Assembly (NCBI GenBank): GCA_024692185.1
Contig: JAILMV010000179.1
Coordinates: 1-35,494, forward strand
Reading direction: 5' to 3'
DNA length: 35,494 bases
Source of the DNA: Bacteroidales bacterium
GTDB lineage: Bacteria > Bacteroidota > Bacteroidia > Bacteroidales > UBA932
The position numbers and the translations under genes were made by a program. The notes beneath the pieces were generated by a model, which saw only the letters and a program-made list of their open reading frames with translations, did not search any database and had not been told where the DNA came from. Positions 5,125 to 34,888 of this stretch are shown here, piece after piece. Within the stretch, counting starts at the first letter, position 1, and each line of letters begins with the position of its first letter.

Positions 5125-5594
5125 TGAAGTTCATTCTGCTGACAGTTGGCAAGACGGACGTGCCTTGGGTGCGCTCCGGGCTGGATTTGTACGCCTCCCG
5201 TCTGCAGCATTACGTGAAGTTCGAGCTTAGGGAGATCCCCGAACTCAAGGGTGTCGCCTCCCTCAGCGAAGAGCAGATAAAACAGAAAGAAGGCGCCCTT
5301 ATACTCAAGGAAGCCGGAGATGCGGATATGATACTCCTCGACGAGCACGGGAAAGAGTTCCGCTCGATGGAGTTCGCATCCCAGGTCCAGAAGTACATGA
5401 ACCGCGGCGGGAAGGACATTTTCTTCGTTATCGGAGGTGCCTACGGGTTCAGCGAAGAGGTCTATGCCAAGGCTTCCGGCAAGATATCCCTAAGCAAGAT
5501 GACCTTTTCCCACCAGATGGTCCGGACGATTTTTGCCGAACAGCTGTACCGTGCCTTTACCATAATCAAGGGAGAACCTTACCATCACGAATGA
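5124..5594 (+). CDS. rlmH: 23S rRNA (pseudouridine(1915)-N(3))-methyltransferase RlmH
   Basis: MKFILLTVGKT, ILLDEHGKEFRSMEFA, DIFFVIGGAYGFSEEV, LSKMTFSHQMVRTIFAEQLYRAFTIIKGEPYHHE. Confidence 0.95.
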   Translation: MKFILLTVGKTDVPWVRSGLDLYASRLQHYVKFELREIPELKGVASLSEEQIKQKEGALILKEAGDADMILLDEHGKEFRSMEFASQVQKYMNRGGKDIFFVIGGAYGFSEEVYAKASGKISLSKMTFSHQMVRTIFAEQLYRAFTIIKGEPYHHE

Positions 5595-8500
5595 ACAGGC
5601 GTAAGATATTGGATTATATTGCCGGCGGCCTTATGGCAGCCTGCATCGTGCTTGTGCTCTTCTCCAGCATAGGCACCTATCCTACCAGCCGTTCCGAAGT
5701 GTTAGCAAAAAAGGTCGAGAAGCAGACCAACAAGAAGATAAAGGTCCTGGATGAATTCGTGGCCAGGGCAATGGCCCTTCCTACTGACGAATGGATGTCG
5801 TTCAAGGACCTGCCGTCCGACATGGTGCTCTACCGTTATGTGGACGACTCCCTCCAAAGCTGGTGCAATCGCTTCCCGGTAATGAACGACGGGCTTTCTT
5901 CCGGCATGTTCTTCGATGCCATCGTAAGCCCCCGCTCGCCAGGGCGCTCGCCTCTGGCCTCCATAGGTAAGGAGTTGACATTCTGTAATTTAGGCCCGAA
6001 GTGGTATCTGGTGAAGGCGGTTGACAGCCTGAACGTGAGGATTATTGCCGGACTGGAGATGGACGACGCCAATTCAGGCGAGTTGAGGAGCTATTCCATA
6101 CAGCCCATATCCTATAGCGAGGGCAGGGAAGTGAAGGTGGAAGGAGTCCCTAAGTTCAAGATTTCCTCGGAGTCTCCGGAGGTGACGGTGACGGTCAATT
6201 TCGTGCTGCTATACTGCGCCCTTGTGCTGTTCATACTGTGCGGATTCGCCTTCCTGCTGGCCAAACCGGTGCTGCAGCGCTTCTGGATAGCTGTCATCCC
6301 CATAATCCCGATACTGATAATCCTGCACCTGCTGGAGCATAACGTGGGAACCGACCTTCCCATGTTCTCTCCCACGCTCTATGCGGACAAGGGCCTCTTC
6401 CATTCTTTGGGAGCGCTCATCAACTATATGACCGCCATACTGGTGATAGTCAGCTATCTCTACATAGTCCGCAGGGATGTGTACAGGCGGCTGCGCACCC
6501 GTAAATCGAAGGTGATATGGACCGTCGGCCTGTCCTTTGCCGCCGTGGTCATACTCTGCTTCACCGTGCTGGCACTCAGGAGCATAGTGCTCAACTCCCA
6601 CATCTCCCTGGAATTATACAAGCCGGAAATGTTCACCTGGCCGAGCGCAATAATAATCCTTGCCTACATACTGCTGCTGTCGGCAGTGGTGATGATAGTG
6701 CAGATGGTCTCGCCGGTGTTCTCCCGCTATCTGGGCAGCCGCATCCTGATGTCGCTGCTGGGAGCCCTGATCTTCGTCAGCATCACCGCCTCCCTCGGCC
6801 TCAAGAAGGAGCAGGCCAGCCTCGAGGTATGGGCCCGCCGTCTTGCCGTAAGCAGGGACATCTCCCTGGAGATGCGCCTGAGATCGACCGAAGAGCGCAT
6901 AGCATCCGACCCGATAATTGCCTCCCTGGCCGCCCTCCCCAATGGCGGTGCCAGCATCAGCAGCCGCCTGGAAGAAAGCTATTTCCGCAGGATAATGAGG
7001 GATTACGACGTGACCGTCTCCCTGAAGTCCGAGGATATGAAAGTGCTCAACGGCGCGGAGCCGATCGCACCTAACTCGCATTTCTCGTACTACGATTCCG
7101 GCACCGGCCTGGTGAGCTATGTCGGGGCCTTCTTCTACAACCTCGGGAAGTACGGCTATACCCAGGTAATGATCAAGATAGAGCAGAAGACCGACTGGCG
7201 ATACAGCGGTTATGCCGCCATAATCGGGCCTACCATGCCGGGCGAAGTGCTGATCCCGTCCAAGTACTCCTTCGCCCGTTACGACGATGGCCGCCTGCTT
7301 ACCTTCAAGGGCAATTACGCCTATTCCATGAGGATGGACGAATCCTGGTCGAAGGATTTCTCCACTGCCCAGAAAAACGGATGGGTGCATTTCGTGTACA
7401 AGGTCACGGACAATGAGACCGTGGTCATCTCCCGACTCAAGATAAAGGGATACAACTACATCATCTCCATCATTTTCATAGGGCTGATCTGCTTCCTGGT
7501 ATTCACCCTGCTGCTCTTCCGCAAGTCGGGGCAGAAGGCCTTCGGACAGAGCTATTTCCAGACCAGGATAAGGATGGTGGTGCTGGTCTCGCTGGGCCTG
7601 ACCCTGGTTACCATGGCCGTGGTCAGCGTGCTGTTCGTATTCAACAGGAACGAAGTCAGCCGGAATACCCTGATGTCGGAGAAGATCAATTCCATCCAGG
7701 CCTCGCTGTCCGCCAGGGTGAAGGGCTTCTCCAGCCCGGAAGAAATCCGCACGCCGGAAATGATCCGTATCCTCGGCGACGTGGGCAACAATTCCAACTC
7801 GGATATTACCCTCTATTCGCCCGCCGGAATGGTGATGATGTCCACGGCTCCGGACGTGTTCTATCAGATGCAGGTAGATCCCAGGATGGATCCTGACGCA
7901 TATAATTCGATTGTCCGCAACACCAGCCGCTATTTCATCCATCAGGAGAAGGTCGGCAACCGGACGTTCTACAGTATGTACGCCCCCCTGATGGGCAGCG
8001 ATGGATCCATACTTGCCATCATCTGCGCCCCCTACACCGACGAGAGCTACGATTTCGAGACCTATGTGGTAAGCCACTCTCTGACTATCATATCGCTTTT
8101 CATCTTCCTGCTGCTGGTGGCAATATATATGGCCTCCAGGGTGCTGAGCCTGATGTTCCGTCCGCTGGTGGAGATGGGGACCAAGATGGATGCCGCCGGA
8201 CTCGGCGACCTGGAATACATACGCTACGACAACAAGGACGAGATTTCCGGCCTTGTGAGCGCCTACAACAGGATGGTGACGGAACTCTCCGAGAGCTCCC
8301 GCAAGCTCGCCCAGGCGGAGCGTGACAAGGCCTGGAGTGGAATGGCAAGGCAGGTTGCCCACGAAATCAAGAACCCTCTGACTCCGATGAAGCTCCAGAT
8401 CCAGCGTCTGATACGCCTGAAGGCCAAGGGGGATGACAGCTGGCAGGATAAATTCGACGAGATCAGCAAGGTTCTTCTGGACCACATCGACATACTTACC

Positions 8501-8998
8501 GAGACGGCCAACGAGTTCTCCACTTTCGCCAGGCTCTATACCCAGGAACCGGACGACATCGATCTTTCCGCCCTGCTTCAGGAAGAGATTTCCATTTTCG
8601 ACAACAGGGGGAACATCAAGTTCGAGTATCTTGGCCTGGAAGGCGTGCACGTAATCGGCCCTAAACCGCAGCTTACCCGCGTTTTCGTGAACCTCATCAA
8701 CAATTCCGTGCAGGCCTTGACGGATCACGGCGAAAAGGAGGCCATTGTGCGCGTGATACTGCGCAAATCCATCAAGGAAGGCTTCTACGACATAGTTTTC
8801 GAGGACAGCGGTCCCGGTGTGGCGGAGGAAAACGTCGAAAAGCTCTTCACCCCCAACTTCACTACCAAGAACAGCGGCAGCGGCCTCGGTCTGGCCATCT
8901 CCAGGAGCGTGCTGGAGCGCTGCGGCGCGAGCATCTCCTACTCCCGTTCCTTCTCCTTGGGAGGGGCCTGCTTCACGATTCTGTATCCTAAAGGATAA
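5591..8998 (+). CDS. Large multi-TM NtrY-like sensor histidine kinase (1135 aa)
   Basis: Many hydrophobic helices, HAMP-like segment, H-box ARQVAHEIKNPLTPMKLQIQRLIRLK, N-box NLINNSVQAL, G-box GSGLGLAISRSVLERCG. Confidence 0.9.
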   Translation: MNRRKILDYIAGGLMAACIVLVLFSSIGTYPTSRSEVLAKKVEKQTNKKIKVLDEFVARAMALPTDEWMSFKDLPSDMVLYRYVDDSLQSWCNRFPVMNDGLSSGMFFDAIVSPRSPGRSPLASIGKELTFCNLGPKWYLVKAVDSLNVRIIAGLEMDDANSGELRSYSIQPISYSEGREVKVEGVPKFKISSESPEVTVTVNFVLLYCALVLFILCGFAFLLAKPVLQRFWIAVIPIIPILIILHLLEHNVGTDLPMFSPTLYADKGLFHSLGALINYMTAILVIVSYLYIVRRDVYRRLRTRKSKVIWTVGLSFAAVVILCFTVLALRSIVLNSHISLELYKPEMFTWPSAIIILAYILLLSAVVMIVQMVSPVFSRYLGSRILMSLLGALIFVSITASLGLKKEQASLEVWARRLAVSRDISLEMRLRSTEERIASDPIIASLAALPNGGASISSRLEESYFRRIMRDYDVTVSLKSEDMKVLNGAEPIAPNSHFSYYDSGTGLVSYVGAFFYNLGKYGYTQVMIKIEQKTDWRYSGYAAIIGPTMPGEVLIPSKYSFARYDDGRLLTFKGNYAYSMRMDESWSKDFSTAQKNGWVHFVYKVTDNETVVISRLKIKGYNYIISIIFIGLICFLVFTLLLFRKSGQKAFGQSYFQTRIRMVVLVSLGLTLVTMAVVSVLFVFNRNEVSRNTLMSEKINSIQASLSARVKGFSSPEEIRTPEMIRILGDVGNNSNSDITLYSPAGMVMMSTAPDVFYQMQVDPRMDPDAYNSIVRNTSRYFIHQEKVGNRTFYSMYAPLMGSDGSILAIICAPYTDESYDFETYVVSHSLTIISLFIFLLLVAIYMASRVLSLMFRPLVEMGTKMDAAGLGDLEYIRYDNKDEISGLVSAYNRMVTELSESSRKLAQAERDKAWSGMARQVAHEIKNPLTPMKLQIQRLIRLKAKGDDSWQDKFDEISKVLLDHIDILTETANEFSTFARLYTQEPDDIDLSALLQEEISIFDNRGNIKFEYLGLEGVHVIGPKPQLTRVFVNLINNSVQALTDHGEKEAIVRVILRKSIKEGFYDIVFEDSGPGVAEENVEKLFTPNFTTKNSGSGLGLAISRSVLERCGASISYSRSFSLGGACFTILYPKG

Positions 8999-31539: not shown

Positions 31540-33786
31540 CTATTCGGCAGTCTCCGCTGCAACTTCTTCGGCCACAGGAGTTTCGCTTTCGGCGACTTCT
31601 ATTGTATTTTCGTCCACAGCCTCTGTGGCCGCAGCAGCCTCTTCGGCTGCTGCAGCTTCAGCTGCTTTGGCTGCCTTGCAAGCCTGATACTTGGTGTAGC
31701 CCCAGTATCCTCCGCCTGCAAGCAGGAGAATGACCAAAGTCCAGATCAAGAACTTGCGCCTGCGTACCTTCCTGGCCTCTGCGGGATCCACTGCCTTGAG
31801 CTTGGGATACTTCACGAGGCTGGTAAGGCTCTTTCCGAACTTGGGCTTCACATAGGCGGCGGAGTTCACGGCCCAGCCGTTGGCATTCAGCACGGGACCG
31901 AGGTCGCGCCTGCGGAGCTTGCGCCAGGCGATGAACATGCTGGGCAGCGAGATGATCAGCATGATGACAAGCACGATGAGCAGGAACTGCCAGAAATTGA
32001 GTTTTGAGATTCCCTGAGCGAGTTTCACCAGGAACTGACCAATCAGGCCGATAGCCATGCCAATGGCTGCGAATATACCGGCGAACTTGGCAATGTCGAA
32101 GGTGCTGGTCACGGCCGCTGCGGGATTGGTCCCGGAGGTGGCCTTGTCGGCAGATGCGGTCAGGTTGGCCATGGACTTGCCCTCCTTCTCGGCAGCACTC
32201 TTGTCCACCTTGTCGGAGATCCACTTGGCCACCTTCTTATAAGGTGCCCAGAAGGCTTGACGTATGCTTATGGGATTATCTACGATGCTGGTGACGGTGG
32301 CGTCGTACTGCTCTCCGTTGCGATCGTAGAAGATGGCGTTCTTGCCGGGGCGCAGGCCGTCCACGTCACCGTCGGTAAGCACTGCGGCGATGGGGAAGCC
32401 CTTTCCGGTAACCTTGTTGATGCAGTCGCAGTAGAGGATGTACATTCCGCTGAGGCTGGAGATATCTCCCTTCTTGCCGGCGTTGATCACCTTGATGCAG
32501 AGGTCGGTGCTGCGCTGCTCGATGTAGAGGCGGCCGGCCTGGAAGATGGCCTTATCTTCCTTGGAATAGAAATCCTGGAATACCACATAGTTCTTGAGGA
32601 ACTTGTAGAAGTCGCGCACATAGTGCAGGAGCTTGTCCACTGCCTCGATGCTGAGGGCTTCGGGCTCGAGGGCCTTGTCCTTTTCGATGAGCTCGAGCAG
32701 GGCTGCTTTCTGGTCGGCCTTGATGGCGGCCTTGACCGCATCGATTCCGAGAGGTTCTACCTCCGCACCCTTCTTGGCGCCCTTCCAGGCGGTATAGGCG
32801 TCGAACTTGGCGAGCACTGCCTGCCATTCTTCTTCTTTGATTCCATCCTTCTTGGGGAATTCCACGTCGAATACCAGGGCTTTTACGCTATCGAAAGCTG
32901 CCTTCCAAGCAGGGTTGATGCCGCCCTTCAGGGGAAGCACTCCGTCTGCGCTGGGGCGGGCGAGGGGATAGCCGGCAATCTGGTCCGCGGCTGCAGCCAT
33001 GTCGCCGTCGCTGATGGCGCCGACCTTATCGACCGAAACATCCACTACGCCGGCAACTGCATCGTCGAAGGAGATGAGCTTGCAGCGCATGAAGTAGTCT
33101 GCGACCTTGGCCTTGATGGCCTCGCAAGCTGCCAGGGCTGCCTCGGTATTGTCGCCGAAGGGACCTTTGACCTCTTCTGCCTTCCAGGCGCTGTAGTCCG
33201 CGCAAGCAGCGTAGAAGGCCTCGATCTGATCGGCATTCACGCCGTCCGCTCCGCTGCGGTCCTTGGCGGAACCGACTGTGGCGGCGATGTTCTTGATAGT
33301 CTCTTTCAGGGCCTCGTCATCGGCGCTGGCCTCGGTGATGATGCCGTCCCCGTTGAACTGGGTCTCGGCAAAGATCTTTTCGTTGTCGGCAGTGTCCTCG
33401 AGCGAGATGCTCTTCTTGTCGAGCTTGAGGTTGGCGAGTATCTGCTTTGCGGATTTCTGAAGCTTGGCACCCTCTTCGTTCTCGGTGTTGAAGTCGCTGA
33501 GTTTCAGTTCTCCCTGACCCTTGAGAAGGATGTCAGGATCCTTGATAGCGGAGGTGATCCACTGTGAGGTGGCAATCACTTCGTCCACGTGGATGCGCCC
33601 GTCGCCGTCGGTATCGAGCAGCTTGAGCGTCTTCTCGTCGAATTCCAGACCAGTGGTAGGGCAACTCAGAACCGTCCATTTCTTACGGTCCAGGCTTGCC
33701 AGATTAGCAATATCGGCTCCGCTCTCGAGCTTTACCCGGACGGACCCTCCTACGGAAGCATACTTCCAATTGTAGTTTTCTTTCAT
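31540..33786 (-). CDS. EF-hand-containing multi-TM protein of unknown function (748 aa)
   Basis: Canonical EF-hand loop DTDGDGRIHVDE and a second FNGDGIIT; three hydrophobic helices near the C-terminus; Ala/Glu-rich tail; no signal peptide. Confidence 0.85.
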   Translation of the reverse strand: MKENYNWKYASVGGSVRVKLESGADIANLASLDRKKWTVLSCPTTGLEFDEKTLKLLDTDGDGRIHVDEVIATSQWITSAIKDPDILLKGQGELKLSDFNTENEEGAKLQKSAKQILANLKLDKKSISLEDTADNEKIFAETQFNGDGIITEASADDEALKETIKNIAATVGSAKDRSGADGVNADQIEAFYAACADYSAWKAEEVKGPFGDNTEAALAACEAIKAKVADYFMRCKLISFDDAVAGVVDVSVDKVGAISDGDMAAAADQIAGYPLARPSADGVLPLKGGINPAWKAAFDSVKALVFDVEFPKKDGIKEEEWQAVLAKFDAYTAWKGAKKGAEVEPLGIDAVKAAIKADQKAALLELIEKDKALEPEALSIEAVDKLLHYVRDFYKFLKNYVVFQDFYSKEDKAIFQAGRLYIEQRSTDLCIKVINAGKKGDISSLSGMYILYCDCINKVTGKGFPIAAVLTDGDVDGLRPGKNAIFYDRNGEQYDATVTSIVDNPISIRQAFWAPYKKVAKWISDKVDKSAAEKEGKSMANLTASADKATSGTNPAAAVTSTFDIAKFAGIFAAIGMAIGLIGQFLVKLAQGISKLNFWQFLLIVLVIMLIISLPSMFIAWRKLRRRDLGPVLNANGWAVNSAAYVKPKFGKSLTSLVKYPKLKAVDPAEARKVRRRKFLIWTLVILLLAGGGYWGYTKYQACKAAKAAEAAAAEEAAAATEAVDENTIEVAESETPVAEEVAAETAE

Positions 33787-33801: not shown

Positions 33802-34644
33802 TTAGAATTCGAGTACTGCAACTATGGGATAGTGGTCGGATATATAAGGAATATCCAGATAGGTCTTGGTGATGGTCTCGAACGAAGGCACGGCGCTGAA
33901 GTCGGACTCGTAGATGTAGTCGATGACATTGTGGCGGCCGGCATTGCCCCAGCCATTGTAGGTAGGCAGGCTGTCGGTCTTGGCAGCAACTTCGCGTGCG
34001 GATACCATCCGGCCCACGAGCGACAGCAGGCAGGAATCTCCGAGATGGACGTTGAAGTCCCCGGTGAGAATCATAGGATAGCCTTCGGGATTGATGTCTT
34101 TGATACGGTCCACTATCAGACTGAGGCCCTTTGCGCGGGCTTCTATTCCTCTATGGTCGAGGTGGGTATTCACATAATAGTAGTTCTTCTTGTCCTTCTT
34201 GTCCTTGAGCAGGGCCCAGGTGGCGGTACGGCGGCATCTTGCATCCCAGCCAAAGGAAGGCTCCTCGGGAGTCTCGGACAGCCAGAAGTTCCCCCATTTG
34301 ATCATTTCCTGGGTCTTGGTGTTCCAGAAGATGGCCATTACTTCACCTTTTTCTTTTCCGTCATCGCGAGGTACGCCCACATATTTGTAGTCGGGGCAGT
34401 TCTCGTCGAGATAAGCAAGCTGGTCCGGAAGGGCTTCCTGTACGCCGAAGATGTCCGGTTTCTGCTCCGCAATCATTGCGGCAGATGCGCTCTTGCGGTT
34501 TTCCCAGTTGTTGTCCCCGTCCTTGGCATTGCTGTTACGGACGTTATAAGAAATAACTTTCAGCGAGTTGTCGCCTTTCTGGCAACTCTGCACTGCCGGA
34601 AGAAGAATGGCAATGCTTGCAATGAACAAAAGAACCCTTTTCAT
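33802..34644 (-). CDS. Endonuclease/exonuclease/phosphatase-family lipoprotein
   Basis: Lipobox VQSC; LKVISYNVRNSN, KPDIFGVQEAL, NTHLDHRGIEARAKG, LTGDFNVHLGD, VIDYIYES, YISDHYPIVAVLEF. ATG at 34644. Confidence 0.9.
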   Translation of the reverse strand: MKRVLLFIASIAILLPAVQSCQKGDNSLKVISYNVRNSNAKDGDNNWENRKSASAAMIAEQKPDIFGVQEALPDQLAYLDENCPDYKYVGVPRDDGKEKGEVMAIFWNTKTQEMIKWGNFWLSETPEEPSFGWDARCRRTATWALLKDKKDKKNYYYVNTHLDHRGIEARAKGLSLIVDRIKDINPEGYPMILTGDFNVHLGDSCLLSLVGRMVSAREVAAKTDSLPTYNGWGNAGRHNVIDYIYESDFSAVPSFETITKTYLDIPYISDHYPIVAVLEF

Positions 34645-34667
34645 TAGTTTGGAATTAGTATAGTACA

Positions 34668-34698
34668 CAAATGTAGTTTTTTTCTCTCATTTGTCAAA
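34668..34698 (-). promoter_or_regulatory. Bacteroidota-type promoter for the minus-strand lipoprotein/EF-hand/OMP unit
   Basis: On minus: TTTG (34698-34695), N19, TACATTTG (34675-34668). Confidence 0.8.
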
Positions 34699-34791: not shown

Positions 34792-34876
34792 GGAGGAATG
34801 GCCGAGTGGTCGATGGCGGCAGTCTTGAAAACTGTTGTGCGGCAACGCACCGGGGGTTCGAATCCCTCTTCCTCCG
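34792..34876 (+). tRNA. tRNA-Ser(TGA)
   Basis: Acceptor GGAGGAA/TTCCTCC, anticodon loop CTTGAAA (TGA), class II variable arm, T-loop GGTTCGAATCC. CCA is not encoded. Confidence 0.95.
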
Positions 34877-34888
34877 CAAAGCGGAAGC

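Follow-up and report, generated by a model that had tools for sequence, protein, structure and literature searches.

A 748-residue Bacteroidales protein with one EF-hand and a predicted membrane module, a candidate Ca2+-responsive switch

The window is the whole stretch of DNA analysed here, 35,494 nucleotides of a Bacteroidales bacterium (UBA932; contig JAILMV010000179.1). It encodes a 748-aa EF-hand protein on its reverse strand. The reading frame is translated without internal stops, has homologues, and shows dN/dS values of 0.10–0.14 against eight relatives. The gene is therefore real and under purifying selection. Hydropathy peaks lie only at residues 563–593, 592–624, and 679–697, so three transmembrane (TM) helices and no signal peptide are assigned; no N-terminal hydrophobic segment was found by hydropathy. 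A full AF2 model was built with 20 relatives and gave a mean pLDDT of 65.1, with a good N-terminal half (residues about 20–400) and a poor C-terminal half. The features of the gene are as follows.

31540..33786 (−), coding sequence of the 748-aa, predicted membrane-anchored EF-hand protein (stop-free translation, dN/dS, homologues)
33547..33636 (−), EF-hand 1 helix-loop-helix, residues 51–80 (AF2)
33580..33615 (−), canonical EF loop DTDGDGRIHVDE, residues 58–69 (D58 in 106/106, ligand pattern in 102/106 homologues)
33172..33366 (−), dispensable second EF-like unit, residues 141–205 (missing in eight variants that retain EF loop 1)
33334..33357 (−), degenerate loop FNGDGIIT, residues 144–151 (N145 96/106, D147 97/106, G148 96/106)
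33220..33261 (−), DRSG..G..(x6)E loop, residues 176–189 (D176 97/106, G182 96/106, E/D189 80/106)
32587..33174 (−), helical middle, residues about 205–400 (AF2 pLDDT mostly 80–92; 341–365 lost with 141–205 in short variants)
32266..32445 (−), predicted four-stranded beta segment, residues 448–507 (the two AF2 models agree on these strands, at low confidence)
32233..32277 (−), conserved NPISIRQAFWAPYKK, residues 504–518 (P505 and P515 invariant, S507 and A511 at least 90%, A2 alignment)
32017..32094 (−), TM helix 1, residues 565–590 (hydropathy)
31924..31992 (−), TM helix 2, residues 599–621 (hydropathy)
31762..31923 (−), basic K+R-rich loop with KLRRRDLGPVLNANGWAVN, residues 622–675, predicted cytoplasmic
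31693..31761 (−), TM helix 3, residues 676–698 (hydropathy)
31543..31692 (−), A/E-rich tail, residues 699–748 (not conserved; absent or unalignable in many members)

Most of this architecture had been read from the sequence in the initial annotation: no signal peptide, a textbook EF-hand loop, a degenerate FNGDGIIT, an all-helical middle, three hydrophobic helices, and an A/E-rich tail. All of these are found, the two loops at the positions given for them, the helices as the three C-terminal hydrophobic windows, and the middle as residues about 100–400, largely helix according to AF2.

The EF-hand gene is preceded, 15 bp upstream, by an Exo_endo_phos lipoprotein-like gene (33802–34668, −) and followed, 50 bp downstream, by a small outer-membrane barrel gene. 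Just past the Exo_endo_phos gene is a tRNA-Ser (tga) gene (34792–34877, +). Elsewhere the window encodes a sigma-54-type response regulator (1252–2397, +) and a membrane histidine kinase of 1135 aa (5591–8998, +) that matches sCache below threshold. Clustering of more than 100 loci revealed no conserved partner gene beyond sub-clades. The Exo_endo_phos lipoprotein and the small barrel recur only within the window's group; a calcineurin-like phosphoesterase recurs in a sister group and a 320-aa exported protein in another. The calcineurin-like phosphoesterase, an unrelated lipoprotein (L017:9066–9983), occupies the equivalent spot, often 2 bp upstream; that both upstream genes encode phosphoesterases, of different kinds, may be a coincidence. 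In two other Bacteroidota (L112:2060–8782 and L113:2188–8856), a conserved set precedes the EF-hand gene, identified by eye as alpha-amylase-like, 358-aa, VTC-like, and DUF4956-like membrane proteins. The Na+/Ca2+ exchanger PF01699 was present in 28 of 43 carriers versus 206 of 350 non-carriers, with no association.

The window's loop has D, N, or S at positions 1, 3, and 5, G at position 6, I, L, or V at position 8, and E or D at position 12. This canonical pattern arises in 61 of 20,000 shuffles of the 748-aa protein (0.3%) and occurs in 4 of 673 neighbouring ORFs. Judged from sequence, the loop is above chance, and its conservation in 106 homologues is the decisive point. D58 is invariant, position 60 is D or N in 103, position 62 is D or N in 104, and position 69 is E or D in 103 homologues. 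In all, 102 homologues from two phyla retain D-x-[DN]-x-[DN]-x6-[ED] as ligand pattern, and 83 also have the strict form with G at 6 and I, L, or V at 8. Altered ligands are found in four homologues, of which three are divergent and come from the second phylum; the fourth is a copy from the window's genus. This same-genus copy, 48% identical and the sole one found in another genome of the genus, has the loop DWEQDGKIHLDD and is the exception to retention of the EF loop among close homologues.

In the AF2 model, the loop is flanked by helices 51–57 and 67–80 with strand 64–66 between them, all at fair to good pLDDT. A segment with strand 93–95 is a possible pairing partner of EF-hand 1. Lone EF-hands without a clear partner are often weak binders. 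A profile of 38 family members matched EF-hand chains in the PDB, best a CDPK (2aao, E=6.3e-5). EF-hand Pfam models fell below their cut-offs (PF13405, 16.6 vs 25 bits; PF13499, 17.2 vs 30; PF00036, 15.1 vs 25.4), and its classification as an EF-hand-containing protein therefore comes from the motif and the predicted fold instead of from Pfam. These scores, and the full ligand set missing in 4 of 106 members, would suit an EF-hand look-alike whose metal binding has been lost. Such a loss is improbable when the pattern persists in 102 of 106 members and even the very divergent ones all have D58.

The second EF-like unit behaves differently from loop 1 in natural short variants. FNGDGIIT has an acidic residue at neither loop position 1 nor position 12, and its FNGDG residues are nearly as conserved as EF loop 1 across the 106 homologues. 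DRSG...E (176–189) is perhaps a 14-residue pseudo-EF loop. Eight Bacteroidales members (L152–L159, 550–687 aa) lack residues 141–205 and most of 341–365, and two of them additionally lack parts of 241–300. EF loop 1 is intact in all eight, so FNGDG marks a conserved yet dispensable unit. On the tree the short variants form three well supported groups, of which two are possibly sisters; this requires a minimum of two separate losses. Most simply, 141–205 and 341–365 would pack against each other and be removable as a unit, leaving a core of residues 1–135, a helix near 205–235, and 365–700. The TDGDVDG segment, also flagged initially, is present and is not a further Ca2+ loop, because T471 and G473 alone are invariant in the family; its acidic positions are not conserved, and it was rejected as an extra Ca2+ site.

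The C-terminal part was re-folded separately with a poorer result (mean pLDDT 48.7). In both AF2 models, beta segment 448–507 is followed by a long helix. Searched with Foldseek, neither the PDB nor viral models yielded a match at E≤0.001; no EF-hand structure is among the matches listed, none of which is significant. Tudor-like Foldseek matches to the beta segment were not significant. In the basic loop (622–675), R627 and G637 are invariant, and K623, L624, R625, W638, A639, and N641 are at least 90% conserved (A2 alignment). After TM2 there are on average 3.7 K+R vs 0.3 D+E per 11 residues, and the value is 0.4 for the TM1–TM2 turn. Given this K/R excess and the lack of a signal peptide, the N-terminal part with the EF-hand should face the cytoplasm; an N-in topology with a cytoplasmic EF-hand is predicted. 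The beta segment and TM module were found outside the full protein in none of 151 genomes, except for one short fragment. Their genomes and places coincide with those of the full protein, and the parts therefore act as one unit.

The window protein scores below the cut-off of every Pfam and NCBIfam model, and 38 diverse members, when scanned, had weak, scattered matches only. Together with the Foldseek result, this leaves the family without a confident match to a characterised one. Such a match, or loss of the DxDxDG loop in close homologues, had been named in the initial annotation as refuting its reading; neither was seen, apart from the altered loop of the same-genus copy. Several candidate identities were rejected. 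MFS_1 matched at 15.4 vs 33.4 bits in the TM region only, as fits hydrophobic composition. PAP_PilO, a pilin accessory protein family, matched TM3 and the A/E-rich tail at 21.7 vs 26.7 bits, and did so in only one of the 38 diverse members. The PilO, MFS, SrfA, and Zot matches are low-complexity or hydrophobic artefacts. No match to phage or viral proteins was found, with PHROGs matches weak only, and the sole match to a defence family scored 12.5 bits.

EF-hands regulate some eukaryotic mitochondrial carriers, and the TM module could likewise be a channel or transporter, or its regulator, gated by the EF-hand. Three TM helices with a conserved hairpin and basic loop, and the weak MFS_1 matches, are compatible with this. 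However, those matches are below cut-off, the TM helices have almost no charged residues, and the structure search returned no significant transporter match; this function is quite unlikely.

A protein scan of genome contigs found 40 loci, almost exclusively in rumen and gut Bacteroidales metagenome-assembled genomes. By profile search, the family is present in 6 of 297 sampled Bacteroidota genomes, in 43 of 393 genomes sampled from the window's order, representing 26 of 206 genera, and in 66 of 284 genomes of a second phylum, that of genome G297. The 16S genes of seven second-phylum genomes matched probe EUB338 and a DELTA495 probe at 0–1 mismatch, and did not match the planctomycete or verrucomicrobial EUB338 variants. 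Carrier genomes of this phylum are 2.6–12 Mb. The phylum is of deltaproteobacterial type and is probably Myxococcota. A family fragment (residues 331–474) lies on Aeromonas salmonicida plasmid pBY3 (L048:1697–2710), near tet(Y) and ISVsa3; it is truncated, unannotated, and runs into unrelated sequence. Intact relatives probably exist in gammaproteobacteria. The statement in the initial annotation that similar proteins occur in scattered phyla is supported by these finds in Bacteroidota, the second phylum, and the plasmid fragment.

The family tree has two deep subfamilies. Three second-phylum members (L077, L078, and L079) are nested among Bacteroidales with strong support, which suggests horizontal transfer. 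Within the window's genus, IleS is 73–74% identical in genomes G950 and G592; the EF-hand protein is 48% identical in G950 and was not found in G592. G978 has 58% identity to the window in IleS and 52% in the EF-hand protein. From these identities, and with no copy found in G592, the gene is patchy and has moved between lineages. No paper on the family was found in a literature search that reached few subscription journals. The family is probably already in public annotation as hypothetical or EF-hand domain-containing protein. The EF-hand itself is known; what is new is the architecture, its strict cross-phylum conservation, and the absence of a family model.

We propose, at just under an even chance, that the protein is a cytoplasm-facing, membrane-anchored, Ca2+-responsive switch acting on the conserved membrane module. 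It would be a three-TM inner-membrane protein with its N-terminal approximately 560 residues in the cytoplasm. The one canonical EF-hand (51–80) would bind a divalent cation, most likely Ca2+ because 95 of 106 members have E at loop position 12. Binding would alter the packing of the helical N-terminal part on a conserved core, made up of the beta segment (448–507), the NPxSxRQAFWxPYxK stretch, the TM hairpin, and the KLRxR...ANGWAxN loop. A rise in cytosolic Ca2+ would then switch the action of this core at the membrane. A cytoplasmic Ca2+-binding module coupled to a membrane anchor had been suggested at the outset. Loop conservation, the predicted helix-loop-strand-helix, the K/R bias, and the missing signal peptide support a cytoplasmic EF-hand module on such an anchor, with Ca2+ as its probable ligand. 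Further points in favour of the switch are the intact loop 1 of the eight short variants, the CDPK profile match, the co-inheritance of beta segment and TM module with the full protein, and purifying selection. Against it stand the low Pfam EF-hand scores, the Foldseek result, the often weak binding of lone EF-hands, the altered ligands of four members, and the lack of a general partner gene. The sensor role for Ca2+ or envelope state, also put forward at the outset, would be a further step, to which neither the gene neighbourhood nor the exchanger comparison adds.

The main rival to the Ca2+ switch is a constitutive structural metal site, for Ca2+ or Mg2+, that stabilises the N-terminal domain of a membrane scaffold or assembly factor without Ca2+ sensing. 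Strict conservation would be expected of such a site too. Only one canonical loop is present, the remaining EF-like units are deletable, and all parts are co-inherited. On the other hand, the ligand set is of Ca2+ type, most members having E at position 12, and the few divergent members with altered ligands retain the architecture, which a purely structural site would tolerate poorly. We consider the structural site rather unlikely. On the boldest version of the switch reading, Bacteroidota and a Myxococcota-like phylum share an undescribed family of membrane-anchored Ca2+ switches that face the cytosol, each with a single EF-hand governing the conserved membrane module; this is a shade more doubtful still.

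It has long been asked whether bacteria signal through cytosolic Ca2+, and few receptors for it have been defined. The family offers a conserved, mostly single-copy candidate receptor in which D58 and E69 give a clear mutational handle, and its natural short variants separate the retained EF-hand from the dispensable unit. Its taxonomic spread is wide and includes gut and rumen Bacteroidales. If the boldest version is correct, the family would provide a direct handle on bacterial Ca2+ signalling. The family merits a domain model even without Ca2+ binding, because in these searches no known fold or family matched its beta segment and TM module.

The closest profile match in the PDB, the CDPK EF-hands, shares the EF loop region only. 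Unlike CDPK, the window protein has no kinase and has one canonical loop, and homology is shown for the loop region only. CSE (Asr1131) of Anabaena is described as a small Ca2+-binding protein (PMC7065334). Like the window protein it is a bacterial EF-hand protein, and its chain 9qsb is a weak profile match to residues 51–76. The 9qsb chain is 96 aa and essentially EF-hands alone, whereas the EF-hand is a minor part of the 748-aa membrane protein. EfhP (PA4107) of Pseudomonas aeruginosa has two canonical EF-hands, is predicted to be periplasmic via a signal peptide, and binds Ca2+ at 13.7 µM, dependent on the +X and −Z residues (PMC9132961). The window protein resembles EfhP, which is of sensor type, as a bacterial EF-hand protein with a canonical loop and a proposed sensor role. 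In contrast to EfhP, it has one such loop, no signal peptide, and a predicted cytoplasm-facing orientation, and besides the EF-hand it has three TM helices, a beta segment, and an extensive helical part.
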